Origin: Polytrichum commune | Taxonomy: Eukaryota; Streptophyta; Polytrichopsida; Polytrichales; Polytrichaceae | DNA: 64,000 bases | Direction of reading: 5' to 3' | NCBI GenBank assembly: GCA_950295325.1 | Contig: OX485808.1 | Location: 13,828,501 to 13,892,500, forward strand | Shown: positions 8,401-40,300 of the stretch, in pieces | How positions within the stretch are numbered: the stretch's first letter is position 1 | Layout of the letters: the number at the start of each line of letters is the position of its first letter | Translations under genes and position numbers: made by a program | The notes under the pieces: model-generated | Databases searched by the model: none | What the model saw: the letters and a program-made list of their open reading frames with translations, nothing else | What the model was told of the DNA's origin: nothing

Positions 8401-9160
8401 TCAAGAAGATTAGTGCATACTCTAAGGCGCTCGTAGAGCGATAATGCTTTTTTCAAATATGAAAACACATGCTTCTCGGGGGGGACACTTCACTATACTT
8501 TGTGTGAACACGTGCGTTAAAGGGGTATTTAAATGAGGCTATCACATAATTGGAATATTTGAGGTATATTCCCAAACATTCCCGGTATATTCTTGATATA
8601 TTCTCTAATTATTCCTTACTTGAATTTTAAGCATCCTATATTACTTCTAAATTTTTCTAAATTTTATTGCTCATGAATAAAATACACCCTATATTTTAAC
8701 GCGCCATGTTTACTAATTTTCCTAAGTGTCCTCCCCAAGACATGCTTGAAAACAAATAATGCCAGGATGAGTAGTGCTAGTACTTTCAATGAATATTGTT
8801 GCTATGGAATAGTATTTCAGTGGATAGTGTTAGGATGAACGGTGCTTCCTAGATCTTTTGCTGGCACTAATTTCAAACCATACAAAAATTTAGTATGACC
8901 TCCACCAATTCCCTACACAAACTATTAGCCCTCCATCATTCATTGGGATAATTAGTGTAGTTGCATTGGTTAAATTTCAAACAACAAGAAAGGTTAGGAA
9001 GGGGGGGGGGGGGCTTCAAAGTTAGGGTGCCGTATTGGGTTAGTGTGGGCCCTAGGGGTATGACAGGTGTTTGTTGGTTGTTCATATCTCTTTCTTTAGT
9101 ATGAGATATGTGAGATATTTGATGTTATTTTGTTGTTTGGATTTTATTACAGTTTTTGTA
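2456..9160. other. AT-rich intergenic DNA, no gene recognised
   Basis: About 6.7 kb without a supportable gene. Open frames here are short, lack recognisable domains and are scattered over both strands. There are homopolymer runs, including 11 G at 3689-3699 and 13 G at 9001-9013. I see no RNA gene. Confidence 0.6.
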
Positions 9161-9394
9161 GGCGTCGCGTTAATATCCCCCCATCGAACTTCTATCATTA
9201 GGGTTTTTTGCAGCCCGTCGCAGGGTCTTGGGCCGCGGATACTGGACCCGGTCCGTGGAACGGCCCCGGAAGGTACACCCGATATTTGACCACGGCGTCA
9301 GACCGGGCCCGATTTCGGTCCCGCTAATGAAGAGTTGTAGTTATCGTCAATGATGGACGGAAAAAAAAGAACTTTCTTAACGGACGGAGTACTC

Positions 9395-9640
9395 TGCACT
9401 ACGAATTCAAAATATGAGCTCCATAGGGATATTGAGAGCGAGTGTAGTGAAGACGGCACCGTAGTGCACTAAGATCCTATATGTGCGGATCTGGATATTT
9501 CAAATCTGCACTACTCAATCCGCCCGGGAAATCAAACTATGCCGGGTAACACAACCGTTCTCGACTGGTGAGACGTGTCTGGTAGAATGTCCTATGTACT
9601 GCCGGAAATATATGATATGGTTTGTTGTGTTCTGCACTAC
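9395..9640. promoter_or_regulatory. Cluster of four TGCACTAC motifs upstream of transposase
   Basis: Exact copies lie at 9395-9402, 9461-9468 (reverse strand), 9507-9514 and 9633-9640, within 246 bp and upstream of the first supportable transposase exon. The same 8-mer recurs 11 more times through the element. A protein-binding role is inferred from this density and placement. No start site or TATA box for the plus-strand gene could be fixed. Confidence 0.45.
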
Positions 9641-9944
9641 ATCGTCGCCCTGCAAACGGTTAAATTGATGCCTAATCCAATGCATTCTTATCTCGCTGCA
9701 TTGCATGTGTGCTTGAATCTTGAGATCGATGTCAAGCTTAGAATCACTTTCAGTTTGACTTAGGCGTAGTCCTTCGAAGAGTTTCACCAGATGTGAAAGT
9801 TGTCATGGTATTGCTCGAACGGCAGTATGGCGTTAGACAGGTCTGCCACTTTCGATCTGGATAGTAGCAGTTTAGTTAGGAACGATGCACACTGCGACTA
9901 CTCGAAGGAGGATCTCGGGGATTGTAGGGTCCAATCTGTATTGT

Positions 9945-12900
9945 AGCACACGCATCCATCCTATATTGATTTAACAGTCTATGATGATTGTCTACCGAAG
10001 ACTGGCACGGGTGGTTATCTTAAATCTGTACCAACATCTGCTCTTAATTACATCGACCTTGGGGACGCTAGCGATTGTCCTCTTCTAGACCGTGCAGAAC
10101 AGACTATCAGTAAAAATTAAATCCAACTTACGTAGACGTCACTGCGTATGTCGACCTTACCTCTGACGACTGGACATCAAATTCTTCTTCAGTCACGGAT
10201 CAAACATCAGACATCGCAACATGTAATCAGTCTGCCTCCTCTTCCTTCTCTGATGCAGTTAATGGATCCCAAGGGCAGAGCTCTGGAGAGGGAACTTCCT
10301 CTATTTCGCAAAACAGTGATTCCAATCGTGATTCCAGTCGTGAGAGTGATGTTTCATCAGTTCAGAGCAAGTCCAAGCATGAGGTTAAGGGGACCAGGGC
10401 CGGAAGATGTGCACCAGACTCGAAGCCAGCGGAATCGAAGAAGGCAGGTAAGGAGAGAAAACCTAGCCGCCACATTCTCTCCGAGGACTGGGAGGAGGAG
10501 GACACTCCTTACGAGGGACATGAGCGTGAAGAGGAGCTGGTAAGGGGCCTAAGGGACATGAAGCAAACTCCTCCACCGGGTCCTTTCTCCAGAGAAGATT
10601 TAACGTGGCTCCCGATTTGTACACAAGGCGGAGGACGTCACTATATTCACGACGTCGCAGTAATCCCCTGGAGGAGACTTCAAGATTTTAGAGAGGGGGA
10701 GGGTCAGGACAAATCGTACCCCTGTCACTTCAACAAGGAGATGGTGAAAAAAAATAAACCTGGAAGTCTGGTATTCCCGAGAGCAAATAGTGCCGCAAAG
10801 GTTATCAAGTAAGTTAAGAACTGTAATTTCCATATTCATTTGATTGTTTACAGTTGTAGTGCATCCTGAAAGACTCACTTTACAGTTTATTTGTTATCTT
10901 TTCATTACGTAGTGCACTTCATGTATAGACGTAGCGAGCTGAATAGTTTCCGGTAGGTATTGCACCACATTCAGATTTAACGTGCTTTCTCCATCTCCAC
11001 TCTCTTAGGTTCACCTGTAACTTTGGACCTGAGGACAACTCGCATATTTACATCAAAGACCTGAAGGGGCTTCTCCAAGCAGAACAACAAAGGAGGCGAA
11101 AGAGAGTAAAGACAACGTTAGAGAAGAAACGCAAAGGTAAAAAGGTTACACCGGATTTCAATGCCATGTCTACAGACAGGATCACAGGACAGAAGAAGCC
11201 GAGGATTGGGCAAAAGGCAGCAAACATGTCGATGAAACGAGGATGTCAGCGGCATTTCCTGGCTAAGCAGAATTATATGGACACTACATTGTGCCACTTG
11301 GTGTACAAGGTTACGGAGCACGTTAATTGTCATGGCGAACAATGCCACGGACTCATGGTGGCTGGGTTCAAACATTCCATGGGAAGTTCGTTGTCCGAGA
11401 ACATGAAGAAGAAGTTGGGAAGTATGTTGGACATGGGACTAACCTCCACTCAGGTGATGATCCAACACAAGGCTTTTGTGATGGAGATGGCTTTATCGAA
11501 TGCCCCGGTGAGCAGGGACATGTTCGTGATGGCTCATGACGTTCGAAACATAGCAAACAAGCGTGCGGAGGAGACCTGGATGAAGCACAAAAAGGAGACA
11601 TTAAGCATCCGACTCTAGAAAGACGAAAACATTAAGCAAGTGTTTTTTTTACCAAGAGCATGGTTTGTTGGACATGAACAAGGTAGAACAAGACGACGCC
11701 CCGTTCACTCTTGGATTCCACACAGATTGGCAGATGACAATGCTCTTGAAGTTTGGTCACCGTAGTGCAATCTCGATTGATGCCACGTTCGGCACAAGTC
11801 ACTTGAGGGTAAGTTCACTACCAAATCCTCATGATTGTATCACTGGATTTCTTAGAGCATGACGTTGATTATATTGGTATAGGTAACCCAACATCCGACT
11901 CTTTGTCAACTCTTTGTGGTAGTACCCTCTTTACACCGTAATGGTGTTTGACGAATGGCGGAACGGTATACCTATTGCCTATTTCATCATTTCCAGCTCC
12001 ATAGAGAACGCCTTAAAACCTGTGCTGCAGGCGCTGAAGGACAAGGCCGTCTCTATGAATGCAGACTGGAAACCTTCTTCCATCATAGTGGACAACGCGT
12101 AGGCGGAATTGAACGTTCTACAGTAAGTTCATATACATTATACGAGTTCCAGTAAAAATCTCTTGACAGTATTGCATAGGGCATTATATTGATTTGAGGA
12201 TCGGTTGTGACCACTTTGCACTACATGGAACTCTGGCCGACATCGAAGATATTTCTTTGTTTCTGGCATGTTAAGAAGGCGTGGGCTGAGAACGTGGCAA
12301 CAAAGATAAGTCGGATTGAGGATAGAGCGAACTTATTGAAGGAGGTAGGAGATGTATTCTATGGCAAGAGGTATGTCGTTGGGACAGACCCGGTAGCATG
12401 GGCAGCGATGCTATCTTGTGAGCGGTGAGCAGTGAGTGGCGAGCGGTGAGCAGAAAATTTGAATTTTTTTTAAAAAAATTGATTTAAAAAAAAAAAATCA
12501 GAATATTTGACTTAATTCTTACACCGAGTAGGACTCTTCGTATAGTTTCTTTACAAATATGACTAAAAGTAGATGGTACGTTTAACTGTGGATGGTGCCT
12601 ATAACCGTGGAGTGGAAGAAATTATAAACTTTTGAAAAAACCATCCATAAAAAGAAACGGAAGAAAACGAAAAAAAAAATTTAGAAAAAAAACTTCCAAA
12701 ATAATAGGGAACATAAAATAAGGGATAAGAATGTAAATTAAAATTTTAAGTATTTATCCACGAAAACTCAAAAAAAGGAAAACAGATAATAAAAAAAATG
12801 ATTTTTTTTTGTCAAGGTCCTTTCGGATCCGAGACAAGAATATTCTATAGTCACAATTGAGAATAAAAAATAGAGAAAAATGGTCATAGGGTCTATATCA

Positions 12901-14148
12901 TACATTTCATTGAAAAATTTGAAGAATAAAAATTCAAATTTTCTGCTCACGGCTCACTGCTCACCGCTCACCGCTCACAAGATAGCATTCCTGGTAGCAT
13001 GGGCTAACAAAGAGCTCGACAAGATTCGCGATCGGAGGCCTTCAGCTGCCAAATTCATGAAATATATTGATAAGCATTGGCGGAAGAAGATTGGAATGTG
13101 GTGTGCAGCAAATCGAAACGTGCCTCACGCAGGACAAAACACAAATGCTGGGATCGAGTCGTTTCATGCTAATTTGAAGAGGATCCTCTTGCTTGAGAAG
13201 CAACGGTTTGCAGGACGTCGGTTGGATTGGTTGGCTGACGATCTAAAGAACAAGGTTACCGGTCATTACTGGTATGCTCGGGCTTTGAAAGAGTTCGGAT
13301 TTGTCTGAAATATCAAGCAGGAGTTTCTCATTGCAAGTGCTATTCTCCTAGCCCACGAAATTCCGGACTCCTACGTCTACCTGAACCCAGAGGGGGACGA
13401 CATTGCACTGGTGGTTTCAGTTAACAACTACCCCAAGATTTGGACAGTGTATGGGACTAACACGGAGTGGGCGCAGTGTGATTGTTTTGTTGGACAGCAG
13501 AACACAATGTGCAAGCATGTTATGAAGGTTTTTATGATGAAGCATCCGGCTATTGACGAGGGCTTAATTATACGCGAGGCTGGCACTCGGTGTGGGATGG
13601 AGCGAACGATCCCAATGGAGGATGTTTTTGGGTCCACCGAGCAGGACAACGACGGCGAAGACGAAGTGAAGTTCGTGTCAGCTTTCTATCCTCCAGGCGG
13701 GAGCAAAGCGTCGACCTCATGTAGTGCAGAGTCCAACAAGAAGTTGAGCCTTGGAACGAACTCGAATCTGATTGTCTTAAGTGACAACACAGAGCCAGTT
13801 AAAAACCAGTCTGAGGAGCGTCAGTTTAAAACGTGCGGAACTGAAGGGAATCCGATAATTATCGAGTCTGCACTACCCTCGCATAACAGATCGAAACAAG
13901 ACGACCCTGCTGAGTTGATTCGGGATATCTTGAGCACTGCAGGGAAACATAGCGAATTGCATAATCACTTGGTGGCAGACTTGAAGTGTATTCGCGGGAG
14001 ATACAGAAAGATGATTGCTCGTGGCATTGCATGCAAGGAGGTCAAAGAGACGACCCCCACGTTTCCTCTCAGGGAAGGGGACTGGTCGCTTAAAAGAAAG
14101 CTAGGTCGATTGGAAGTTCCTAGGGCAAGTAAGCGTTGTAGAGCATAG
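9945..14148 (+). pseudogene. MULE DDE transposase with SWIM zinc finger (broken)
   Basis: This was a Mutator-family transposase, which cuts and rejoins element ends. An acidic, serine-rich N-terminal region (about 10115-10808) is spliced by a clear GT-AG intron (10809-11008) to a basic region. The catalytic core follows with SIDATFGT (first Asp), IIVDNA (second Asp), CFWHVKKAW and NAGIESFHANLK (Glu). The SWIM finger CDC-x8-CKH is near 13470-13520. A second intron is 11809-11922; a third, about 12123-12198, leaves a reading phase that does not match cleanly. Breaks are TAG at 11616-11618, one extra T in the T8 run 11643-11650, TAG at 12100-12102 where the family has Gln, TGA at 13306-13308, and the MITE at 12403-12993. 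An A-run near 10112 may hold another shift. The N-terminus is not defined. Confidence 0.85.
12403..12993. mobile_element. 591-bp MITE nested in the transposase exon
   Basis: The insertion is flanked by a perfect 10-bp direct repeat GTAGCATGGG (12393-12402 and 12994-13003). Its ends are inverted repeats of about 65 bp that start CAGCGATGCTATC on the left and CAGGAATGCTATC on the right (reverse complement). They continue through several GTGAGC-type iterations into an AAATTTGAATTTTT block. Skipping the insert rejoins the transposase reading frame exactly. The interior is AT-rich and non-coding. The 10-bp target duplication fits a Mutator-type non-autonomous element better than a hAT element (8 bp), although the CAG ends recall hAT. 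Confidence 0.93.
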
Positions 14149-14347
14149 ACGAATCGAACTGTTAAGTGCACTGCCTTAATACTTTCTAGATCTAACACTG
14201 TTCACAGTCGGAATGTAGTGCGTAGAAGACAGGAGTAACAATGTGTACTACATATATTTTATTCATCAAATGAATATCAATTTCTATCCAAGAATATTTC
14301 TTATGAAAGTCCCACTACGATTTCATGTCCAACGCTAACCATGCTGC

Positions 14348-14812
14348 CTAGAGGGAACTATCAGGGGCGTTGTGATGACAGGAAACATTGGTACTACTAG
14401 CAGACGTCGTTGAAGGTGTATCACGGTTGACCTTTTGACCACGAATCGGACCCTTCACAAGCGAACGATACGAACTGCTTCCGTGAACCTCCTCAGGCCA
14501 ACCAGACAGCGGGAACCGAATTATCTTCCTTGACTCCCCCCCCCCGCCGTGAAGACGGCGTACCAAATGTATGCCTTGACTTATAGGACCTTCAGATTCC
14601 CTGAGTTCCACCCGGGCCTCTGGACACACTACCGGATCTGACTCGGAAGACTTGCGCTTCGGTTTAGGTAGCACGTACGAAGTTGGAGTGTTCACATGTG
14701 CCATCGGTAATGACACCGCTGAATCTTGTGCGAGTGAGGCTAGGATGGTGACGACTTCGTCCTCCAACACTTGAATTGAAGGGGAATCCATAGTGTTGTC
14801 CCAGACCATCAT
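14348..14812 (-). CDS. Small uninterrupted MULE-borne ORF, unknown function
   Basis: A 154-codon frame on the minus strand lies between the transposase and the Ulp1 gene. No known domain is recognised. The N-terminal third is acidic and hydrophobic (a short amphipathic stretch around residues 15-35). The rest is Ser/Pro/Arg-rich with a basic PKPKRK patch that could be a nuclear signal, and a GGGG run. It has its own promoter signals: a TATA box about 40 bases upstream and telo-boxes further up. Unlike both neighbours it has no stop or frameshift. By position it could be the analogue of the small second gene of VANDAL elements, but there is no sequence evidence for that. Confidence 0.55.
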   Translation of the reverse strand: MMVWDNTMDSPSIQVLEDEVVTILASLAQDSAVSLPMAHVNTPTSYVLPKPKRKSSESDPVVCPEARVELRESEGPISQGIHLVRRLHGGGGESRKIIRFPLSGWPEEVHGSSSYRSLVKGPIRGQKVNRDTPSTTSASSTNVSCHHNAPDSSL

Positions 14813-14844
14813 GGATGGGAAAAATGAGACGTTATCGTATGGGC

Positions 14845-14940
14845 AGGGTCTTTATATAAATATTTATTGTCTGTAAATCCAAAGAGTGACACATTGCCGG
14901 CTTGGTGTAGGGCTTAGGGTTTAGGGGTTTAGGGTTTCCA
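14845..14940 (-). promoter_or_regulatory. TATA box and telo-boxes upstream of the 154-aa ORF
   Basis: On the minus strand a TTTATATAAAG TATA box sits near 14848-14858, about 40 bases before the ATG at 14812. Upstream at about 14915-14937 are three tandem AAACCCTAA/ACCCCTAAA-type telo-boxes, a motif common in promoters of plant genes active in dividing cells. The order telo-box, TATA box, ATG is what a plant promoter would show. Confidence 0.6.
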
Positions 14941-15086
14941 GAATAAATATAATCCTCTGATGCATTCTATGGTTCATGTAGTGCCGAGCGATACTTTTCT
15001 GATTGGTAGTGCGCGTTGGAGAAGTACAAAGAATGCAAGGTTGACATTGAATGATTATCAGTACCCACACTGTAGGAGATTTACAT

Positions 15087-18000
15087 TCACTCATCTATGA
15101 GAACAATACCATGTGGACCGTCATCTACCTCCACGTTGCAATGGTTTCCTTCGCTGCATCGAACGTCACTGTTGTTTTTCACTACACATCCATCGTCCTT
15201 ATCCTGATACGATCCTCTGTCAAACCCAACCGACGATTGGCACAACGTCCTATCTACCGACCATGTGAGCATTGCGGAGACAACAGCTCGTTTCAGATTT
15301 TGTTTCATGTCCATCACCTCTCCCATGTCAAAAACGTCGGACATCTGCAACATAGTCAGACACCGGTAAAAAAATCAATGTTAGTTCCAACGAGCATGTG
15401 GCGGTAGAGTGACCTAGAGGCCGACTACAACGGTAGAACACTGTGGGAAAGGTACAGACCTCGCATGTCCAGTCCATGACGTCGTCTCCCATTTGGAACG
15501 CCAGGTACATGGTGACGAAGCACATAACGTAGTATCCACACGACCATCCATCCTCCTGTTTTGGGCATCGAACGTGTATCCAGGTCTTAATATCACTACT
15601 CTTCTCCCACATTGCTGTTCCTTCCGACTGCCCTATGGCCATGCACCATACTTGTCCGAGGCATTCATGCAATTTTGCAGAACCGTGGAAACTTACTGAC
15701 GCAGACGGTCTGGAGTCGAACTTTAAGAAGGCGTGGTCGGAGAGCACAGCTAAACTCCAGTGATTGCAGTCAACGACGGGAACCATGACGGTCCTCCCTT
15801 TCATGCGCTTAAACCCTGATTTCTTAGTATAAAACCTGTGTAGTGCAGAGGTTGAAAAGGGTTTCTCGACTAGGACACGAAGACTACATCCAACTAGGGA
15901 ATTGCATAGCAGGACATCATCTGGGATTATAGTCTGGAACCATATCGTAAAGAAATCCATGAGCGGTGTAGTGAGTAATCCGTCCTTCGAATCGAGGACT
16001 TCTATGTCTGCAGTCAGACGAAGAATTGTACTGCCCGAGTCAAATATGAACTGCATGTGGCCCCTTGCGAGATCACCACACTCCGACTTAATGCGGTCTC
16101 TCATGAGGTTGTAGGCACTGCAAGACAACACGGCGTCAAACTCTAGGCAGTACAACGACTGGTTGCAGGACAGTGGAGGTAGCACAAGCACGGCGGTATA
16201 CTGCAACGGCAACACATACGTCTTTCAGTATTACACCTACTTGAGATCCATCAGCGAGGCGTTTTTTCAATAGAGCATCAATTAGGCACCTCAAAATGTA
16301 CACAGGGAAGGCTTTTCCCCATACTACCTACAACTTATGATTGCAGAATCCAGGGGGGAGACCGACATCGCCACCGCATTGTCTTCGGGGGGTTTCCTGT
16401 CCCCCAAGGTCAGTCTTAGATGGTCTTCTACGACTTTGTTCACGGCAGCAAGGTCCATTGCGCGAACCGGGGAATCCAGAAGTTGTGAACTCCCAGACTG
16501 TAACCTGAACGCTACCCGACTCGGAGTCCGCCTGAACCACCCGGATCCAGCCCGCATAATTGGAGGCGAGGGGTTCATCATATGTTGAAAGAGAAGTTGC
16601 CTCTCGTTCTCGCTGTCGTCGACCATGGGGGGTAACCTACTGTCTAAGCATATATGGGATTCAGCCGTTACTGCTGAAATCATTTGCAATGCCGCCTCAT
16701 TCTCTGCGCCGTCCACGGTTGCCTTGTTCTGTTTGGTGGGATCTAACACCCCCAACGGCACTACGTTGGGCGGCACTACGGGTGCCGAGTCGGATGCGCA
16801 TCCCTGTGGTGCGAACCCGAGTTCAACAAAGGTCCGCAGTAGCTCTTTCTCGCGTAGCTCCAGCAATAATTGTACTACGCATCCAACGGCCTCCTTCAGT
16901 TCATCAGGAACAGGTACTTCGTTGTCCAGTCCCAGCATTGACCATCCAATGTCCACGTTTTCACGAATACATAACATCTTCGACAAAACCTAAAAAACAA
17001 CAAATGAACAACAATGTAAGGATGTCTGCCCGACCTAGGTATATCCAAATCGTCACTGACCACACATAGGAGAAGACACCCCCTCATTCATTACACTTAC
17101 CTCGTTACAGTGGGCACGTAGTGCAGCGGGATTATTTGAACCAGTCCTCCACCACATTGCCGCTAGTTCTGCCGAGTATTTCCCGCTCCGATGCAAGTCT
17201 ACTATGGTGCGGCGGGCAACGCGGTTCAAAAAAGTTTCAATGGTCTCCAAGACGTCGTCTTGGTTCCAGCCCTCGAACCCCATCAGCCCAAGCATGTCTC
17301 CCCAACATCGACGGATGGGAGCACAAATTCCGCCAAAAATGTAGGGGAAAAGAGCCCATCCAATATCTACGACGTCCTGTGCACACGCTGACAGTCGTTT
17401 GGATTCTACATCGTCTTTTGCTATTGCCAACATGTTCCGCCTGGTCATCCCCGTGATAGGATGTGAAATTGGCGAACATCGTCCGAAGGAAATGCGTCCG
17501 TATAGCTTCAGAGCGCGGACGATGTGAGGGCAGTCCAACTCTAAGGACATGGGTTCCCCCTTCACGTCTGCCTACAACGCGGATAAAATGTCGTGGAGTT
17601 CCTCCTGCGTATGCTTCCACGGTCGTGTCGGTACCCCTGGAGCTATTTCCTTGCTAAGAATCCTGAAAAGGGGAGACCAACCCCAGTCCGTATCCTCCAC
17701 TCGCATTGCCCTCTCACGATCAAAAAGCTGGAGTTGCCCTACAATATGAGACCTTCGTCGATCCTCCAGAGCCACTTCGGCGTTGAGGCGTTTGGACACG
17801 TACTGCGCTTTCTCCCGGATATAAATTAAGTATTGTTCCAATTTGGCCAATTCGGCATTTCTCCCCTCGTTGTTTGTCAACTCGATGTACGGATTCCAGG
17901 GCTTCACCGATATCATGACGAAGTTCAATTCGTCCGCGTGTTTGGCATCGATCACGCCCCCCGCCTGCGAGACATGCGACATGGTTTTAACCTGGGTCTG

Positions 18001-19886
18001 CCCGCACTACCCGCTCCCTGACTTGGAGCCAGAGCAACAAAACATGCACTACAAGAAAGGACATGTCTGAGAATACCTGTGCTTATTTCCACGCCACCCA
18101 GGGTCCAATTGCTACAAGAATCCTTGCACCAAGTTGGTCACGCTTCTCCAGGCTACGAAGCTCAGCCATGCATTGTTCAGCATTGTGTAGCAATTGTCGG
18201 TCGATTATGACGCATTGCGGCGACTCTTGAATCAGGTGATACAAGCCCGCGATGCCTTGTTCTGGAGGAGGAGGGCCAATGTTCGGGTATGTGTTTTCCA
18301 CTGTTAACGACGATGCATAACGCCGAGCTTCATCTAGAACCTGTTCTCTAGTGGAATCCGGCGTGAAACTATACTTTGATGTATTCGCCTCTACCTGCAC
18401 TATGCCAGCCGTACTGCTTCCCTTTCCGGCGTCGACATGTATCAAGGTGAAGAATCCCTCCACATTGCCGAAATCCTCGGAGATCTGATGGCTGCAATCG
18501 CAGTCCTCTCTCACCAGAGATAGCACTTCGTCGTCTCCAACTCTGTCCTTCTTCTTCTTCATTGCTTCCGCGAGCGAGGTAGTCTTCTTCTTGTTGCCGC
18601 CTTCGCGATCCTGTTTATTGCACCCGGAACTTGGACCGTACCATTCGCGTCCCCGCTTCGACGACGTGCCCCGTATTGAAGGCTCATTTTTCGCTGATGG
18701 TTTATGAACGACCGGCACAACACCAGTAGGATTGTCGCTACCCTTTTCCTGCACTACAGTAGCACTACCTCTGTGGATTGCGTTCTGTACCGACCCTTCT
18801 ATCCTTTCGGTCGTGGTGTGAAGCTCGGAAGAGGTAGGTGGAGCCGGAGCCTGTTTTAGCGTCTTCTCTTTGACCCTAACATCCTCTATACCTACACCGA
18901 CCGATGTTTCTTTAGAGGTAGTCTTTGTGGTCCTGCTCTTCCTAGTCTTCGGCTGCACTACAGGGTCTGTATGGGCTACGTGGGCTACGTGAGCTGCAAT
19001 CTCTCTCGGGTTCCACGGGCGCCGTCCCTCTTTCTCAGGAAACGACAAACCCACTCCCAAAAGGATGTCCTTCAAGAGGTGTTGCTCGCTCTGTGAAAAT
19101 GTTGGGTACATTTTCAAAATTCATGTTCCAACCTCCCTCCACTTTTTGCATTGGTCCTTGTAGCGATGATAAGATAGAGCATTCTTATCCGAGAAGTCCA
19201 TGTGACAGTATTTGCACTAGTAATGGTATCGCTTCTTTGACCCAGGGTCCTCCCAGAAGTGATATCGGCACGTGTAATGCGCTTCTATCACAAGAGCCTT
19301 GTACTCTTCCTCGGTGTATAGACACGCACAGGGAACTCTACCCTGCTTCAACTCGGCCCTGTACACCCTCTCCCCTCCGACCGTGAATCCCTGCAACATG
19401 GACGGAATAACAGAGTTTAAATGGGCGACAACACTCCAAGAACCCTAAACCGACGTTCCATATCGACGACTCAGACGACTTAGACCTATGTCCGAACCTT
19501 ACCTCCTGCACACTCGATCGCCCCTTTGACACTAGTCTTGTCCATGTCTCCAGCCCCAACCCCTCAATAAGTCGTTTGTCTTTGTTTACGATAAGTTTGT
19601 CGTCATCAGGAAACTGAATTCGTGGGCCTGTTACTCCAACACCGAGAAAAGAAATAGAACCCGAAGCTATAGCGGGCGCCAACGTTGTCTTGCTTTCCCC
19701 TCGGGAGGCACTGCGGTTTCCAGATCGGTTCGACAGAGATATTGGAGGGACGCCGAATTCAATATCAGTGTCAGTTTCGGCATCACTCTCCTCAATTACT
19801 CCCCTCTGCAGACCCAATAGAGGTTCGAAGGCAGCGTCGATACTAACGTCCTCCTCCAATAGTTTGTTAGACCTTGCTCTGGTCAC
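15087..19886 (-). pseudogene. Zinc finger-Ulp1 protease protein of the MULE (broken)
   Basis: A long minus-strand gene whose exons join in frame at good splice sites: 19886-19503, 19390-18077, 17997-17101, 16989 to about 16326, about 16214-15460, and 15344-15087. The fourth-to-fifth junction is uncertain. Exon 2 begins with a classical C2HC finger (C-x2-C-x3-F-x5-L-x2-H-x5-C; CHMDFSDKNALSYH). The middle is Lys/Ser-rich and low-complexity. Exon 5 holds a C48/Ulp1-type fold with His in DCNHWSLAVL, Asp in KFDSRP, and Gln and Cys in KQEDGWSCGYYVM, so the catalytic residues are retained. Stops are TAG 19217-19219, TGA 19121-19123, TAA 18083-18085 and TAG 17572-17574. Ulp1 enzymes process or remove SUMO-like modifiers. 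In plant MULEs the real role is unclear. Confidence 0.8.
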
Positions 19887-20544
19887 TCTCCGCCACGGAT
19901 CTACAAGACCACAAGGGAATCAAAAAACGATGTGGAAATATGGGTTCAGAATTTAATACGATGCCTAATTCTTACATAATTTCCCTCGTGCCTAGAACCC
20001 AAGTATAACGTTTATTCATTACACCTACACCGCGAGCTCTCTAAACACAATCTTGACATGCTTGGCACCAACGCCCATACCTCCACCGAATCCACTGTAA
20101 CCCTAAACCCTCAAACGCAGCGTAATCCAGGAGCACGCGAAGACCTGAACTAATTTGCTAAAAAGAAAACCCAACATGTGAAAGGGAAATTAGTTCACGC
20201 TCCTCCAAGCCCCACACGAGAACACGCGGAAACATTGCGAGCACGACCGGCGAAATGAAGATTTCCACTCTCTAAACGCCCCCCCGGAGGAAGGTTTAGC
20301 CGCCCCTCACCTGGTTCCATTGCGCATTGCCGCGGCTGTCCTCGCCAGGCGACGCAGTAGGGCCTGCACCAGAAACCTAACCGGAGGATTGCGAGGACGT
20401 TTTCACGATCACCACCACCCCGAAATTCAAGGCTCGAAGAGCAGGGCCACACAAACGAGACACTGAGTAGCAGTACGATTTTCCCCCCATAAACGACCCG
20501 CCCTCCTGCAGAACAACGACGGTGCAGCACAAGCCTGGCTCGCG

Positions 20545-20570
20545 AGGACACTTCGCTATATATACAAAAT
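20545..20570 (-). promoter_or_regulatory. TATA box of the zinc finger-Ulp1 gene
   Basis: The minus strand reads TTTGTATATATAGCG here, a strong plant TATA box, about 670 bases before the first recognised coding ATG at 19886. This leaves room for a leader or an unrecognised first exon. A telo-box-like AACCCTAAACCCT lies at about 20099-20112 in the leader. Confidence 0.5.
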
Positions 20571-20922
20571 TTGAGCCAGGCCAGACGGTTTATTGTGCTG
20601 GTTGATTTCATTTACACTCTTCATGTCCCCCTCCGACAAGTACGCTCTGTCTTGCCATCCTCGTAGGTTGTTTATCGTAATGTATTTGTTTACCTGCAAT
20701 TTCTTTCCTTATCCCTTCTGTTTTCGTCATATTTGTAATTCTATTTTATCATAACCCTTTACATTTTCTATGAGGCTCTCATATTCTACCTCCAATTCTT
20801 CATTTGAAGATCTACAAAAATGTCATCTAACACTAAATGCGCTTTTGTAAATATTCAAAGTTACTAATTGGTACAAATAGTGTTAGAGTTGACATTTAGT
20901 GTTCTAACACTATGAAGACAAT

Positions 20923-21565
20923 TGAGAGTTCTGTAAGATTTTATAATGTTGTGCCTAATGTGACTAATACCTCGGCATGGTATTAGTCACATTAGTCACA
21001 TCATTATACAATCGTCCCTAATCTTAATGTATTGTATATGAATTTGCATGTGAAACATTCCTATCATTACCATGACCAAAACCAACACACTCCAACACGT
21101 AGTGGACCATTTTAACGATTTCTCGATTTAAAATTGAATTTAAAGCGAATAAAAATAAAAAATAAAAACAAAATAAAACAAAATATCAAATGACCGTAGA
21201 AACTTGCAAAATTCAAACTTCCTTGATATACTAACTATGGAAAAAAATATCAAAAACTTAGGCCTCAAGGTGTGAGAGTTCTGTAAGATTTTATAATGTT
21301 GTGCCTAATGTGACTAATACCTCGACATGGTATTAGTCACATTAGTCACATCATTATACAATCGTCCTTAATCTTAATGTATTGTATATGAATTTGCATA
21401 TGAAACATTCCTATCATTACCATGACCAAAACCAACACACTCCAACATGTAGTGGACCATTTTAACGATTTCTTGATTTCAAATTGAATTTAAAACGAAT
21501 AAAAAATAAAAAATTCGTAAAAATATGTCACAATATCAAATGACCGTAAAAATTTGCACAATTGA
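20923..21565. repeat. Two tandem 350-bp repeats, each with a 17-bp hairpin
   Basis: The sequence starting TGAGAGTTCTGTAAG at 20923 is repeated from 21273 with few changes over about 290 bp. Each copy contains a perfect 17-bp inverted repeat (CTAATGTGACTAATACC and its complement) around a 7-base loop: 20955-20995 in the first copy and 21305-21345 in the second. The unit is AT-rich and non-coding. It may be a tandemly duplicated MITE or a satellite fragment. Confidence 0.85.
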
Positions 21566-24869: not shown

Positions 24870-26198
24870 CTGTTATCACTATATTCGTTAATTTGAGACT
24901 TTCTCTTGTCTCAAATTAAGTTATGGACCACAACAACATAATCTAATGTTATGGTCGTCCTACCTAAGCTATCTTGATATGATGTGAGCCCAAAAGGGTG
25001 CCCACATTTAGTCTTAGACCCTTGAAACGTTAGTTGATGCACTTTGAAGTAGCATGTTACTTCACAAAAATATAAAAAGAGTGAAATGTTAGTCTTAGAA
25101 GTACCATGTTGTAAGAGGCTAGGATGTGAGTTGTTATTGTGTTTTTACCTTCGGAAGGATTTGAGTGAATGAGGATAGGTAAGGAGAACTTGGATTGAGT
25201 AGTTAGTGAGTAGGCTAGTACAAATGGATGGAGACAACCAAAGTGACTCAAGAGGCAAGTGCATTCGAATTGGGATGAATGGAGGATCACATGGAGCGCA
25301 CAAGTGAACCACCTCATCATGGCCACTTAATGGGGAAGGCCCAAGGAAGAATGCAAGGTGGAGGATAAGCAAATTCTCAAAGCACCAATCAAATCACGAG
25401 TTAAGCATCGTGGTTTGAATTAAGTGGTGAGCGACGATTTGGGAAAGTAAGGGGAGAAAGTTATGGCGGCGGAAAGCGAAGGAGGCTAAGTTTGGGTTGA
25501 AGCATCCCAAGTTTGGTAAAGTGTGGTAGGTAGAAAGCCAAGGCTAGTTAAATGTTCGAATTAGGATCCTTGTTGATCATTTGAGGGAGGAAGGCTTAGA
25601 AGATAGGATTGGCGCCTACTAAGTAGGAGGAAATCTCAAGGGCTTATCGTGAGCCTTGAGGGTGCTCACCCCTCAAGCTTACTATATAATCCCTCATTCT
25701 TCCCTCACTCATCCTCTCTTTCCTTTGTGCTCCAAGGCACCCCACGAGTTATAAGTGTGGGTGTGGGAAGCCATATTGGAGCACATGTGTGTGCTTAGTT
25801 TTTAGTTTGAGAGCCAAGGCTTGTTAGCCTTGAAGAGGGCTTGACCTCTTGGTAGAATTAGTGTTGACGTGAAGGATTTTAAAGTTAATTCATGATTCCA
25901 ATTTGTGGTACTTAAAGTTCATGTTTTGAATACACGTGGTTGCAAGTTCCATGTTTAAGAGTTGAGCACTTGATGTTGTGATGAGTGCAAAAATATACTT
26001 GTGTGGATTAGTTATTCTTAGTGAAGTTAGGAAATTCTCTCTCCCCCTCTCCTCTCTAGGATTTTAGGATTTTAGGATTAGAGAAGAATTGTGTGATTAG
26101 AAAGGGGTTGTTAGTAGAATTAGGGAAATTAGGTAGGAAGATTAGTTAAGGGCTTGAATAATTAGTGAGGTAGTTGGGGATTACAACTACAAAGTTGT
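24870..26198. other. Intergenic DNA, LTR- or promoter-like in part
   Basis: No gene recognised. A TATATAAT box at 25683-25690 follows a G-rich purine tract and precedes a CT-rich stretch, as in plant promoters or LTRs. No coding frame or primer-binding site follows it. Confidence 0.35.
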
Positions 26199-26467
26199 GG
26201 GTTCATGAAGGAGCTGGGTTTATGAAGGAGCTGGGTTTGTTTAGTTAGAAAGTAAAGAGCTGGGTTTATGAAGGACCTGGGTTTGTTTAGTTAGAAGCTA
26301 AGGAGCTGGGTTCATGAAGGAGCTGGGTTTATGAAGGAGCTGGGTTTGTTTAGTTAGAAGCTAAGGAGCTGGGTTCATGAAGGAGCTGGGTTTTTGAAGG
26401 AGCTGGGTTTATGAAGGAGCTAGGTTTATGTAATTAGAAAGTAAAGAGATGGGTTCATGAAGGAGCT
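26199..26467. repeat. Higher-order minisatellite
   Basis: A basic unit of about 17 bp (GAAGGAGCTGGGTTTAT with variants) is repeated. It is also organised into longer blocks separated by TTTAGTTAGAA(G/A)(C/G)TAA(A/G)GAGCTG, giving a nested periodicity. At least ten basic units are visible. The array lies in non-coding DNA. Confidence 0.85.
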
Positions 26468-27069: not shown

Positions 27070-28143
27070 TCATCCAAGTCCAAATCCAATACCGCGGAGG
27101 AATGTGAGCCCAAACCCACTACTCGGACTACGGACGCTTAAGGGTGGGGGGTTTGGCCTCACATATGAGTTTTTTAATTGGGTTCGCCTTCGACTAGAGC
27201 TTGGACTCATTCCCGCTGCTACGTGTAGTACCTGCTCAGCATACCTAACCCGAAGTGCCCTGGTACTACCTCCTTCCTGTCTTGCTGATCCACTCGACTT
27301 CGTCTGCATTGGAGTGCATTTAGGTTTGTTCATAGCAATTGGCGGAGGTCGCTCTTCTACCGAATTCAACGCCGCCTCTACCCGAGGAGCCCAGGGCCGT
27401 TGTCCTTCCTCACGTGGAAATGTGAGACCACACTGGGCTAATACTTCTACCACAGCCTTTGTGTCGGATGGCTTAAAGGTGGGGTACATTTTCAAAACCC
27501 CACCTTGCCCGTTGGTTAACCGCTTCCACGCATCGCACTGGTCCTTGTGTCGGTGATAAGACAGTGCGTTCTTGTCTGAAAAATCCATATGACAGCACCT
27601 GCACCAGTACCAACGCCGTTTATCCTTCCCTTGCACGCGATAGAAATGGTAGCGACATCGGTAGTGTGCTTCTACGATCAAATCCTTGTATTCATCTTCA
27701 GTGTACAAGCAGACCAGTGGGACACGTCCTTGGGTCAATGTAAATCGGTAGACATTCTGACCTTTCGCTGTAGTGCCTTCGATCAACCCCACTGGCCCGT
27801 TTTGTACGAGATTCCACCACACATCGAATCCGAGCTCCTCTATAAGTCGATGGTCCTCGTTCACATTGACGATACCTGTAGAACTGTCCCTATCGAAAAT
27901 CCCCCCCGTGATCCCGAGCCCGTAGCCAACCACCCCCGAATCGCAATTCTGATGTCGTGTCTCGGTACAGCCATTTTCCCCTGAATCCAATCCTTGCTTC
28001 TGCACTACCCTCGGCATCCCGGCTGCACCTTTGCGGGAGTGCGACGTCCTGAACCTGTAATGTGGCTTCGGGAGGTCTGGTTGATTGCTTGGTCTAGTTG
28101 ATTGCTTGGGAGGGGCGACGTACTCCTCGAACATGCTGTACAC
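27070..28143 (-). CDS. C2HC zinc-finger protein related to MULE Ulp1 gene
   Basis: A 357-codon uninterrupted frame. Residues about 95-240 align with the MULE protein at 15.1-19.9 kb. They share a stretch ending in RLIE-LG---W, the QGRVP-CLYTE-EYK segment, the classical finger C-x2-C-x3-F-x5-L-x2-H-x5-C (CHMDFSDKNALSYH) and LKMYPTF. The Ulp1 domain is missing. The last 60 residues are basic and Pro/Ser-rich with no counterpart. The 112-bp intron at 19391-19502 of the MULE copy is absent: the two proteins align without a gap across that point. The finger suggests DNA binding. Whether it is expressed is unknown. Confidence 0.65.
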   Translation of the reverse strand: MYSMFEEYVAPPKQSTRPSNQPDLPKPHYRFRTSHSRKGAAGMPRVVQKQGLDSGENGCTETRHQNCDSGVVGYGLGITGGIFDRDSSTGIVNVNEDHRLIEELGFDVWWNLVQNGPVGLIEGTTAKGQNVYRFTLTQGRVPLVCLYTEDEYKDLIVEAHYRCRYHFYRVQGKDKRRWYWCRCCHMDFSDKNALSYHRHKDQCDAWKRLTNGQGGVLKMYPTFKPSDTKAVVEVLAQCGLTFPREEGQRPWAPRVEAALNSVEERPPPIAMNKPKCTPMQTKSSGSARQEGGSTRALRVRYAEQVLHVAAGMSPSSSRRRTQLKNSYVRPNPPPLSVRSPSSGFGLTFLRGIGFGLG

Positions 28144-28269
28144 TAGTCTAAACCCTAGTACACCCTAACTATTCGAAACAACCCAACGCTCTATTTGGAT
28201 TACCATAAGATGACCCCTGAACTTGGGAAACATGGTGCCAGCTCCACCCTAAACCCTTCACAACCTATG

Positions 28270-28290
28270 TTACGGAGTTATATAGAACTA
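28270..28290 (-). promoter_or_regulatory. TATA box upstream of the zinc-finger ORF
   Basis: The minus strand reads TTCTATATAACTC at about 28278-28288, some 135 bases before the ATG at 28143. Telo-box-like ACCCTAAACC elements lie around it (28238, 28338 and 28437-28455). Confidence 0.45.
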
Positions 28291-28501
28291 CCTAAACCTT
28301 CACGGCAGAACGTAGACAATTTTGCGACATTAAAAATAACAACCCTAAACCTCACCCTTGTGTATCTGGTACTACACGTATAATGTTCGTGTCCGACCTT
28401 ACGCTCCGATCTTAGTCTTACATCCCACAGCCTTCTCTCCTGACCCTAAACCCTAAACCTCGACCTACTTACATGCTCCATCTATGTTGCACAGTTCACC
28501 C

Positions 28502-28631
28502 CGAACGCTTGCCCACAGCACTAAACCACAGCTCATCTCCCCATTCAACGATACACTACACACACCCGAACGCTTGCCCACAACACTAAATTACGGCTCA
28601 TCTCCCCATTCAACGATACACTACACACAGC
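28502..28631. repeat. Two tandem 65-bp repeats upstream of the zinc-finger ORF
   Basis: Units 28502-28566 and 28567-28631 both start CGAACGCTTGCCCACA and end with ACACTACACACA-type sequence, differing at a few bases. They lie in the upstream region of the zinc-finger ORF. Confidence 0.9.
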
Positions 28632-28975
28632 CGAACTCTAACCACAAACTAGGGCAACACAACGCAACACACGAAGAAAGGTGCACTTCGGACCGGGGCA
28701 CAACTCTAACTGCAGGACAATAAAAGACGATAGGGTGAAAAGATGACACTACTAAGCTCACGGACTACTGCACTAGGCCGGTTGACCCGGACCGGGTGGA
28801 CCGGGCCGGGTCCGGAGGCCTTATCGCGGGCAGGGACGTGTGGGCCGCCACGCGGGGGTCGGGGGGTTTTTGGGACCCGTTCCGCCCTCCAAACCCATCC
28901 TTTCGCGGGCAGAGGAAGATTGCCCGCGGGCGCTCTATTTCGGGGTTGGAGGGGGGGTCTGTAATGAAACGCTTT

Positions 28976-35984: not shown

Positions 35985-37398
35985 CTTCGACACAGGAGGG
36001 CAACACAGGAGCGTCGGACAAAACACCAAACTAGAGACTGAAGACGCAGGCAACCAGGTGAATGTAAAGACGAAGGCGGCGTGACCTATGACCGTGTGTG
36101 CACCTATGGCCGCGGAGACCTATAACCGTGTCTGCACCTATACCCGGTACAGTCCCCGTGTCCGCCCGAGGACAGAGGCGGCCATTGTAACGCAGCTCCA
36201 GCAGTGGAGAGCCGGAAAAAAAATTGGATGCACGAAAAAATTTGAATTCTTGCATGGCCTAAACTATGAGGCATACACAGGCAATGGGAGAATCACCTGT
36301 TTTGCAGGTGGGTTGAGCACGATGCTTGTTGGTGGAGTGGGTGGTGTGCAATTTTCACTCCCAAACAAGTGGAGCAAGCGTGAGCTGCGGCGCTGTAGTG
36401 CAGGTTGGGTTGCCATAAGTGTGTTTTGCTTTGTGGATGGCATCGTTGCACTCTTGTCTCCGCATTGTAAAACCAGATTGGACAACACTGCAGCGGCCTC
36501 CGAGTCATCCGCATCCACCCTACGCGATTGTTGTACTGTGTCTGCAAAACGGACAACCCTAGCATGCTTTCGTGGCGCACGCGACACTGCCATGCTGCTA
36601 AGTGCTGCTCTTTCAATGTGCGTACAAAGGTGAGGCCGCAACGCTTAGGGTTTACAGAATGTCGGCAAGCCTTTCCGGGGTCTTCTGTAACATCCACTGT
36701 GAGGTATACCCTGTGGGGACACGTGGGAAATGGTCATTTACATGGCATTTTACTTGCGTGGTAGAAACCGTCGTTTTCATAGATGTCATTTTTGACACCC
36801 ATGGTGACATGTGCGTATCCCAACGAATGTGTAGTGTCAGTGATTGTGGGACTGAAAGTCGTCTGGCTGAACGCCCGCCAACCTCCGCAGACTATGCCAC
36901 CAATATGGCGAATGTTTTCACGATCTTCCAAGTGAAAGTCTTCCATGCATGGGGATTCGTTGAGGCAATTTAGATATGCATGGACCGGAAAGGAAAATGA
37001 GCCAGTGTCCTCCAATATTTGTAGCATATGGAATCGAATGCAGAATGGCAACTTGCAAAACCCAAGCCCCACACATGTGTTTGTATTGAATGCACTACCG
37101 TGTAGTGTGGGCACCTTCATTTTGGCGTCCGTCAAGATGTCACCTTGGACAGGAAGTCATTGAAAGGGACGCCCATGTGGACATTCTCGATGACATGTAT
37201 GCAATTTCTCTGCACGTTATGCATGCAATTCCAAAGAGGAACAATGGTAGTTGTTAGAGCTTGATGTAGTTGGGAACAATGGTAGAGTCCGAAAATTTTC
37301 ACTGAAAGGTGACAATATATGTGGGCAGAGGCTCTTTTGGTGAGGTTCTTTTCGCACTTGGCATTGCGAACAACATCTGCTGGTTGGCTGGTCAGAAG
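35985..37398. promoter_or_regulatory. Divergent intergenic region of the CACTA element
   Basis: About 1.4 kb between the starts of the TnpA-like and TnpD-like genes, presumably the bidirectional promoter. It has short repeats of the CTAT(G/A)(G/A)CCG(T/C)G(T/G) type at 36085-36150 and two TGCACTAC copies (36395-36402 on the reverse strand and 37091-37098). Frames here on both strands (for example 36264-36641 minus) have no recognisable domain. Confidence 0.5.
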
Positions 37399-40300
37399 AT
37401 GAGTTCAGCGCAGAGCCGTGGTGCAACCATTCGTTTCACGGAAGACGGACGCACACTACGGCATGTCCCCGTTGGGGACATAATTCTCCACACGGAGTTG
37501 CGCATGGCCACGGAGAATAATGTGCGTGCATATAGGTGTCCTTGCAAAGACTGCAAGGGTGGACGACGGAAAACCATCCAAGTTATACGAGAACACCACG
37601 CTGCGGTAGGACGTGATCCATTCCTACATAAGTCTTTACTAGGCGGTGACCCCCCAGAAGGCTACCCAGCGGCTGGAATTTGGGTAGAGGACGTCTATTG
37701 TGACAACGACGTTGTAGAAGACATCCATGCGGACACAGCAACTCAACGTGTGGACACCGACGACGGGGTACTTCACCCACCTCTCCTGGATGAATTCCAC
37801 GAAGTTGAACGTCAGGTGCTAGAGGCATTGGGCAGAGGGGATGCACTCCACGAAGAGGCCGAAGCCGAAGGACGCTTGCATATGGAGAACGAGGAAGACG
37901 TTGACATTGAAGATGAATTGGATGGTTTGTACACGGAGGCCACCACTCCAGTGTACCCGGGTTCGAAAATGAGCGTTGTGTCCGCTACGATCATCATAAT
38001 GAACATGTGCTCGGTGTTCCGTGTGAGCAATACATTTACTGATGAGTTGTTCCGTTTTTTGTCCGGAGACTTGTTACCGATGCCCAACAAGTTGCCCAAA
38101 ACTCACTATGCGGCTCGGAAGAGCATCCGTCGACTTGGTTTGACCTACAACAATATCCATGCATGCCCCAATGGTTGTATTCTATATGACGAAGAATATG
38201 CAAATCATGATTCATGTCCCAAGTGCACGGCGCGACGATGGCTGGATGGCAGCAACAACATTCTAGCAAAAGTAATCCGACACTTTCCCCTAATTCCTAG
38301 GTTGAAACGGATGTGGCGCTCGTCTGAGATAGCGCGTCTATTGACAGGCCACACCAAGCACGTCAGCAGTGATGACATCATGCGTTCTGTGGTTGACAGC
38401 CCTGCATGAAAGCACATCAACACAGACGTCGCGTTTGGCAACTTTGGGTGTGACGAGAGGAACATGAGACTGGCTCTTGCGCTGGACGGAGTGAATCCTT
38501 TTAAACTAAACAACACCAACTGGTCGACGTGGCCGGTGTTGATATTGATTTACAATTTCGAGCCATGGTTGGTGACCAAAAAGTTTTTTATCTCGTTGTG
38601 CATATTGATTTCCGGTAAGAAGTCGCCGTCCTCTTCAAACATTGATGTGTTTATACGACCACTTTTGAAGGAGCTACAAGACCTTTGGCATGGTGTTGAT
38701 GCTTTAGATTTCTCCCAACCACAAGGGAATCGCACTTTCACTTTGCGTGCCATACTTATGTGGACCATTTCCGATTTTCCCGCATTCGGCCTCATTTCTG
38801 GTCTTACTTGTAAGGGCTACAAGGGGTGCCCTTGTTGTGGACCAAACACCAATGCGAGGATGGCAAAAACGGGGGACATGCTTCCAAATCGGAGCATTAG
38901 GGGCACCAAAATTGTTTACGGGGGCATTCGCCGTTACTTGCCCCGTCACCACCCGTATCGCCGGAATAAGAGATTCAATGGGGAGGAAGAGCAACGTCCT
39001 AGGCCAAAACCGCTGTCGGGGGATGATATCATTCGATATGCAGCTTAGCGCGATTCATACCTGCAGATGGGCGGGAGAGAGAACGGACCCAACGATCCTG
39101 TGCATGTCACAGGTGTCAAAAGACTTAGTGCGTTCTTCGAGCTGGATTATTGGCAGGTGATGCCCGTATAAGAATCCATGATTGCCCATCCTGTCCGCAT
39201 GATGTTGAAGTGGACATAGCGACGTCCGTCTCAGTCACATCGTTTGTAATGATGTCTACAAAGACGTCTGACCTAACCCAGAAGGCTATGACGATTACTA
39301 CCTTTGTTCAAACGGATAGACCAAACATGCAGGTGTCCATGAACTTGCTGGAAATGTGTCTGAAATTGCTCATGTGTCATGTGCAGCATCTGCTAGAGCG
39401 TCACATCCTTGATGTTATGCATTGCAAGAAGAATTTGTGCAAGAACTTGTTGAAGACTCTGTTTGGAATGAATGATAGTCCTGGAAGCAGGGTCGACGCG
39501 GAGGACCTGGGAATACGCGAAGAGATATGGTTGCAACCCCCACGGCGGCAACAGGATGGGTACTATATGCCGCACGCTCCCTATGTTTTTAGGCCAAATG
39601 AACGTGCGGAGTTTGTTGGAATCGTCTCCAATATTCGCACTCCCACAAACTACGTGGGTAGCATTCACAAGCGCCTAGCGGATGGGAAATTGCAGTACAT
39701 GAAAACGCACGACTACCACATTCTCATGCAACAGGCAAGTCAAGATTGACACCCTCGGGAATGTCAATGTTGTAATACAATGTATCAATGTGTCATAGGA
39801 ATATAGGCACACCCCGCATGATGTCTTGCGCGACCTCATTGCAAACATGGTTGACGCGTCACCATCCTGGGTGACGTTATCATCAAACTGTTCCAGCAGT
39901 CCATGTTCTTCATGACGCTCCTAGGTGTTGTGGGTGATGTCCAGGGGGGCGCGACACAATCTTTCTCTGACTTTCTAAGTACATGTCTTCTAGATTCTTC
40001 CAGTGGTTGTACGTAACCTTTTGGATGAAAGCGTGCGCGTTGCTATAATCAAAATGAGTAGAGTGTTTCAGAGACTGTGCGGTAAGAAGGTGAAGAGAAG
40101 CGACAAAGAGGGTACGATGGTGGATGTGGTGATGGCGACATGCGTCATGGAGAAGGAGTTTCCCCCGACATTTATGAATGTCATGACGCATCTTCCCGTG
40201 CATTTGGTGGAGCAGTTGTACACGTGCGGTCCAGTGCATTGTCGTTGGATGTATCCCATAGAACGGTACATGAAAACATTGAAAGATTACATTCGAACAT

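Follow-up and report, generated by a model that had tools for sequence, protein, structure and literature searches.

The element and its genes

The 64,000-nucleotide stretch of DNA analysed here (contig OX485808.1, positions 13,828,501 to 13,892,500, forward strand; below, the window) contains a transposon in which one 8-mer, TGCACTAC, recurs at high density. To judge from its sequence, the host element is a MULE-type transposon that in its fuller form carries a transposase gene and two tandem genes, A and B. In that form the protein of each of these two genes has a C2HC zinc finger towards its N-terminus, followed by a helical middle domain and a C48 (Ulp1) protease domain. The transposon body in the window, a member of subfamily A, extends from 9160 to 20764 and comprises an upstream region, the transposase gene on the plus strand and gene A on the minus strand. 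The left end was placed at about 9160 from the onset of homology to three other copies (9161 for L001, 9152 for L002 and 9162 for L004), and the homology in this block reaches its right limit at about 20764 (the block of L026 stops at 20763). No terminal inverted repeats or target duplications were found in the window element, of which the right end is not fixed.

The transposase gene (10525 to 14148, plus strand) was recognized as homologous blocks at about 10525-10812, 10962-11811, 11923-12123, about 12200-12403 and 12990-14148. One of its exons is homologous to the element L025 (E 2.4e-18), an open reading frame of which matches the Pfam family PF10551 MULE at 3.1e-8, and the sole Pfam signal of the window transposase exons is a weak SWIM finger match in the last block. 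A nested insertion of 586 bp with GCTCACC-rich inverted ends (12404 to 12989) lies inside a transposase exon; it occurs in none of the four other subfamily A copies read, holds no TGCACTAC and has a CpG observed/expected ratio of 1.19, the highest of the pieces measured.

Gene A lies on the minus strand and consists of the N-terminal part with the zinc finger (18083 to 19919), the helical middle domain (16324 to 18006) and the C48/Ulp1 protease domain (15328 to 16224). The protease match of the window copy falls under the cut-off (E 0.0082) and homologues in L008, L012, L015 and L020 exceed the Pfam cut-off (3e-4 to 5.5e-8); in the elements chosen, the C48 gene adjoins the transposase. The middle domain has an in-frame stop in the window copy and is kept in related elements. 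It gave no Pfam family above chance and no match at E below 1 in a fold search of the PDB. The finger core of gene A (19148 to 19216) reads C-x2-C-x3-F-x5-L-x2-H-x5-C with the helix SDKNALSYHR, and is directly preceded by an in-frame stop in the window copy. Of gene B only a 5' remnant is left (27186 to 28687, minus strand), with its finger core at 27535-27603. Both genes of the window copy, transposase and C48, have stops or frame breaks, and because of these breaks the transposase copy is probably dead.

A short word repeated throughout the element

Counted on both strands, exact TGCACTAC occurs 18 times in the window. A preliminary description had listed 15 starts between 9395 and 18961, and all 15 were found at exactly those positions; the other copies start at 28001, 36395 and 37091. 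That three copies lie elsewhere in the window, as also described, is correct as a count, but the copy at 28001 (28001-28008, plus strand) is part of this composite element, where it falls within what is left of gene B. The copies at 36395 and 37091 lie upstream of the open frame of a different transposon. None of 100 dinucleotide-preserving shuffles of the window reached 18 copies (mean 1.77, maximum 8). The whole genome holds 6654 + 6709 = 13,363 copies in 407,808,757 bases (64 contigs, both strands), and this density of 3.3 per 100 kb gives 0.31 expected in 9.57 kb, in agreement with the earlier estimate of about 0.3 chance copies, so that the excess in the element is 48-fold. Unrelated tandem repeats containing TGCACTAC were seen in L029 (299-3950; C1:2.25 Mb) and in L030, with units of about 127, 307 and 109-132 bp.

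The 7-mer GCACTAC proved to be a better core. It is the top word of the element, with 22 copies against 1.0 expected under an order-2 Markov model. The copies are balanced between the strands (12 and 10), are preceded by T in 15 of 22 cases and followed by A or G in 17 of 22, and all 22 have flanks that are less than 70% alike.

The sites are spread over the upstream region, introns and exons, as had been stated. Four of them (9395 plus, 9461 minus, 9507 plus and 9633 plus) form a cluster within 246 bp (9395 to 9640) between the left end and the transposase gene, two are in a probable intron (10856-10863 and 10909-10916, both minus), and one lies between the two open frames of gene A (18045-18052, plus), which makes seven of 15 outside exons. 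The remaining eight were assigned to exons by homology and reading frames: four in transposase exons (11762-11769 minus, 12217-12224 plus, 13721-13728 minus and 13869-13876 plus), one in the C48 domain exon (15840-15847, minus), one in the middle-domain exon (17118-17125, minus) and two in the N-terminal open frame of gene A (18750-18757 and 18954-18961, both plus). All exon calls were made without transcripts, and for 18750 and 18954 the exon status follows from the open frame alone. When synonymous codons were permuted in the window exons, the six observed TGCACTAC compared with a mean of 0.66 and none of 1000 shuffles reached six; this test used the ten listed frames, leaving out the exon sites 11762 and 12217. 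In line with the earlier statement, protein-coding constraint is insufficient to account for the word.

Related subfamilies and a candidate reader

Ten-kb pieces from four other subfamily A loci contain 16, 17, 11 and 18 TGCACTAC, so that all four are enriched; the preliminary description had named a lack of the 8-mer in related copies as an outcome against its idea of a self-recognition motif, and this did not occur. Among 21 non-A loci, which were picked from homology match lists and not randomly sampled, TGCACTAC is absent from 18 and occurs once in each of the other three (L012, L024 and L025). Most of these loci carry words of their own, GAA[G/T]GAC or GCAGAAC, which share the frame TGNANNAC(A) with TGCACTAC. 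The class words are TGCACTAC in subfamily A, TGAAKGACA in 2a and TGCAGAACA in 2b, and one-base variants point to T-G-N-A-N-N-A-C-A as the fixed positions. The top 7-mer fits GNANNAC in 15 of the 21 non-A loci, or in 16 after merging of repeats with similar flanks, and 0.8% of all 7-mers would fit by chance. In L016 and L022 the top word is CAGAACA, which continues the frame at 17 of 27 and 9 of 18 places, and in L015 it is AGAACAC, continuing the frame at just 5 of 15 places. The top word of L021 is a telomere-like repeat, with GAATGAC ranking third, and L011 showed no significant word in the word ranking. The word classes exclude each other well, though not fully: L009 has 34 GCAGAAC and 2 GAA[G/T]GAC, and L020 has 0 and 52, respectively.

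Word scores were 25-53 for the A loci, 46 for the window, 22 for the gene B part, 34-60 for L009, L010 and L019, 36 and 21 for L016 and L022, 14-48 for the GAA[G/T]GAC loci and 20 for L024, with a maximum null score of 12.2 over all loci (20 simulations per locus). Since the loci are related, three to four word classes are a better measure of the independent evidence than the number of loci. Synonymous shuffling of the other loci (300 shuffles each; 500 for L026) left 18 of 23 with no shuffle reaching the observed count; the exceptions are L008 (3 of 300), L021 (212), L023 (12), L022 (2) and L024 (2). Outside the window and L026, every open frame of at least 200 codons was used, some of them overlapping or antisense. 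The distant MULE L025 (C6:201468-210467), which carries PF10551, has its own word ATGTTAC with 13 copies against 1.7 expected, and word build-up may therefore reach beyond the C48-carrying clade, with a score near background.

The genome counts of TGCAGAAC (9611) and TGAAGGAC (17,514) are likewise low. A dispersed repeat with tandem units of 17, 46 and 63 bp reading GAGCTGGGTTTATGAAGGA was observed at 26198-26467 of the window, in L047 (960-1321) and in the flanks of L017 and L011, and its copies can raise the genome counts of TGAAGGAC. A TGAAGGAC cluster at C1:436k was rejected as a family signal as it proved to be a dispersed repeat that is also found beside L017 and L011; the count of L017 is inflated because this TGAAGGAC-bearing repeat adjoins it.

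Between subfamilies 2a and 2b, the class words of each stand at the same aligned position at two coding places (8 pairings against 0.46 expected). A-B pairs were excluded from this comparison, since the frames taken from L026 also cover a portion of gene A. In the alignment of five A copies, GCACTAC appears in 26 columns, and it was gained or lost several times. Tandem arrays of the word are present in two 2a elements examined, L014 and L020, and no tandem array covers the word sites of the subfamily A copy in the window.

Gene B was compared with gene A in L026, where it lies to the right of gene A on the same strand. For the C48 region of gene A, six genome matches were 91-100% identical and four further matches, at 37-38% identity, lie 9.5, 12.3, 24.9 and 37.3 kb from a near-identical match; among the matches listed, the copy at C1:19.67 Mb lacks a neighbour of this kind. 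Both genes sit among GCACTAC sites, and the gene B part of L026 has 12 of these in 8.3 kb against 0.8 expected. A and B share 33-38% identity in long alignments, and the finger cores agree in 21 of 23 residues. Over the 23 codons of the L026 finger core, A and B differ by 11 silent and 2 replacement differences, an excess that points to selection and speaks against recent conversion.

The N-terminal C2HC finger of the C48-protease genes A and B is the most likely candidate for the reader of the word, as predicted from the following sequence comparisons. Among 16 further 5' pieces of related elements, 15 contain the finger and none was found in L046; L008, L015 and the loci of A and B have it as well, and L011 has a partial match. 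Twenty finger sequences share eight invariant residues, which include the four ligands and, within or next to the helix, D, K and R; the C-x2-C-x3-F-x5-L-x2-H-x5-C pattern fits A and B, and its F and L positions vary in other sequences. The predicted model has short strands and a helix (pLDDT 64). Profile matches in the PDB were weak and mostly to C2H2 fingers (E 0.018 and up), a match to Pfam zf-C2H2_4 was below the cut-off, and a fold search gave E values of 0.5 or worse, with spliceosome proteins leading and DNA-bound C2H2 fingers among the best. Two helix residues vary with the word: A-L occurs with GCACT, M-T with GAA[G/T][G/T], T-T with GAAG[G/A] and T-V/I/L with G[C/A]AGA. The wide occurrence of the finger and its variation with the word lend support to the earlier suggestion of a zinc-finger reader. 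At L004, near 253-459, one zinc ligand is changed (CKYC reads CKYY), and the locus has 18 TGCACTAC.

Proposed self-addressed anti-silencing and its alternatives

We consider it somewhat probable that the word is the element's own address tag, read by an element-encoded protein, likeliest through the C2HC finger, for anti-silencing. The enrichment of the A copies and the rarity of the word genome-wide support the earlier idea of a self-recognition motif; by analogy, we infer that the finger recognizes the word and, once bound, works against silencing. In this mechanism the (T)GCACTAC core would accumulate throughout the MULE as a private tag, an element-encoded protein, likeliest with the N-terminal finger of A and B, would read it, and the density of the word would steer this protein to long stretches of its own family and to little else in the genome. 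Once bound, the protein may lift or prevent silencing by DNA methylation along the element, as do the VANC proteins of Arabidopsis, perhaps with a contribution of the SUMO-protease-like domain, and the relief would allow the genes of the element to be expressed. Related subfamilies would have changed the finger helix and the word together within T-G-N-A-N-N-A-C-A.

Several observations weigh against this explanation. The finger is not the sole conserved piece, as the identity of A and B is 48% over some 200 residues surrounding it. In L011 a finger-like match is not accompanied by a significant word, L013 is an exception to the covariation of finger and word (M-I, second base A), and shared descent confounds this covariation. 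A single finger usually reads 3-4 bp, and a word of 7-9 bp would thus need a dimer or a second contact. The A loci also contain 5-7 GCAGAAC, and A sites never coincide with 2a or 2b sites (0/117, 0/50, 0/141 and 0/110). Between A copies, an excess of single-site conservation was not shown: sites were intact in 20 of 22 cases for window-L001 against 0.85 for other 7-mers and in 11 of 19 for window-L003 against 0.66, and in 13 of 14 for L003-L001 against 0.65, so that with fractions near background in most pairings selection on single sites was not shown. Five background pieces of the window scored 6.0-14.5 and four of them exceeded their own null maximum (8.2-9.2), indicating that real DNA is not a perfect null; the weakest words, those of L018, L025 and L015, are not clearly above background (L018 13.6, compared to 14.5 for one background piece). 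DUF1985, a domain of Arabidopsis VANC proteins, had no match in the genome, a weak negative as 14 control genomes were silent too.

The word could instead be a binding site for transposition, where the transposase or a helper coats the element via repeated short sites without any anti-silencing. Subterminal repeats serve the binding of TnpA in En/Spm or of the Ac transposase, four of the 15 sites lie less than 500 bp from the left end, transposase and C48 genes are neighbours in the chosen loci, and the element, in which no terminal inverted repeats were detected, may depend on recognition sites of another kind. However, most sites are interior and exonic, across about 10 kb, and the residues that vary with the word are those of the C48-gene finger, in a comparison that covered the finger and not the transposase; we regard this explanation as rather unlikely. 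It is still less likely that a host DNA-binding protein reads the word, as an enhancer, insulator or site of silencer recruitment, and that the element accumulated its sites. One family of host factors could account for the TGNANNAC frame common to the subfamilies, but the words of one class hardly occur in the others, which is hard to reconcile with a shared host reader, and the word is in excess in the exons of both genes.

That the word arose from sequence composition or from duplication, through codon bias, internal tandem copies, a satellite or the ends of CACTA-type transposons, is largely refuted and appears very improbable. In its favour, unrelated tandem repeats hold TGCACTAC, the 2a words are partly in tandem arrays, the site at 18045 reads on as CACTACAAGAAA, which we take to resemble a CACTA terminus, and the four background pieces also top the simulated maximum, by less than the element does. 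Each source was nevertheless rejected. Satellite or genome-wide enrichment, the other outcome that had been named as adverse to self-recognition, is ruled out by the 0.31 expected from the genomic copies, and internal duplication by the dissimilar flanks of all 22 GCACTAC, with no array over the window sites. Codon bias is ruled out by the synonymous shuffles, in which the coding excess survived in the window, all four A loci, L026 and 13 of 18 other loci, and CACTA ends by the varying bases after the word.

The proposed self-addressed system resembles the VANDAL/VANC transposons of Arabidopsis in being a MULE with accessory genes, in having a dense private word that is rare elsewhere, and in its related families with different words. 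VANC21 is reported to bind short words and VANC6 to act on different ones, each protein leading to hypomethylation of its own transposable elements (PMC5735166; PMC10398659). Noncoding tandem arrays of the word, seen here in the two 2a elements, are described for VANDAL in PMC5735166, which gives YAGTATTAY as the VANC21 word and AGTTGTAC as that of VANC6. The VANC21 word contains GTATTAC and fits GNANNAC, whereas AGTTGTAC agrees with that pattern in G and AC and departs from it at the third base. With a calculated chance of about 2% that a given 9-mer contains GNANNAC, and with the incomplete fit of VANC6, we take this as a lead only. The system also differs from VANC: the candidate reader is a C2HC finger instead of DUF1985, and the subfamily A words are dispersed without arrays and about half exonic, whereas the VANC21 sites are mainly noncoding (PMC5735166). 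VANDAL/VANC elements are defined by a VANC gene with DUF1985 and DUF287, a lack of terminal inverted repeats and a 9-bp target duplication; no DUF1985 was found at E up to 10 among 20 middle-domain members. Membership of VANC is not claimed, and the system may only work like VANC anti-silencing.

A C48/Ulp1 domain gene inside a MULE is also known from the Kaonashi (KIU)/Ulp1-carrying MULEs of eudicots, which lack terminal inverted repeats. A review reports that VANC genes with Ulp1, too, act via motifs on elements of their own kind, and dates the Ulp1 capture by MULEs to the monocot-eudicot split (PMC13317346). Unlike Kaonashi, the elements analysed here have two tandem C48 genes with fingers and probably a non-seed plant as host. 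The genome gave 28 exon matches to NAC, in about 14 genes, and 34 matches to WRKY. These numbers are low for a seed plant and hint at a bryophyte or a lycophyte. In its way of working the system is similar to PRDM9 and the KRAB zinc-finger proteins, where helix residues change together with the word that is read, but the finger is single and not in an array, and is encoded by the element, which it probably protects. In a search of largely open literature we found no report of a zinc-finger-read self-motif in a MULE.

It is possible, though we hold the whole combination to be doubtful, that the elements represent VANC-like self-addressing anti-silencing in a non-seed land plant, with an element-encoded C2HC finger fused to a SUMO-type protease as reader, and with finger helix and word having coevolved in three to four classes within a fixed TGNANNAC frame that also fits the VANC21 word. 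A transposon that lifts silencing from itself alone, with reader and tag changing together, is already known from the Arabidopsis VANDALs. The genome analysed here offers many related elements, at least three word classes and one small varying finger, which makes reader-tag coevolution testable. If the anti-silencing role is true, systems of this kind have a much greater age or more than one origin, and fusions of finger and protease could become sequence-specific epigenome tools. If the host is a non-seed plant, the capture date given in the review is too young or the capture was repeated. A truly shared frame with VANC21 would mean a deep common origin or a striking convergence, and would provide a natural finger-to-word code.

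The CpG observed/expected ratio was considered as well and rejected as too loose to use: it was 0.88-0.89 for L001, L002, L004 and the window element, 0.78 for L003 and 0.58-0.77 for L005-L025, and in flank pieces 0.35-0.47 in six and 0.80-0.83 in three (29-44 kb). Additionally, the window has a run of open frames on the plus strand at 37306-41652 with a weak Transpos_assoc match (E 0.013), which we take to be a probable CACTA-type transposase. Two direct repeats of 291 bp, 93% alike and each with a 35-bp inverted repeat pair, are located at 20923-21563.

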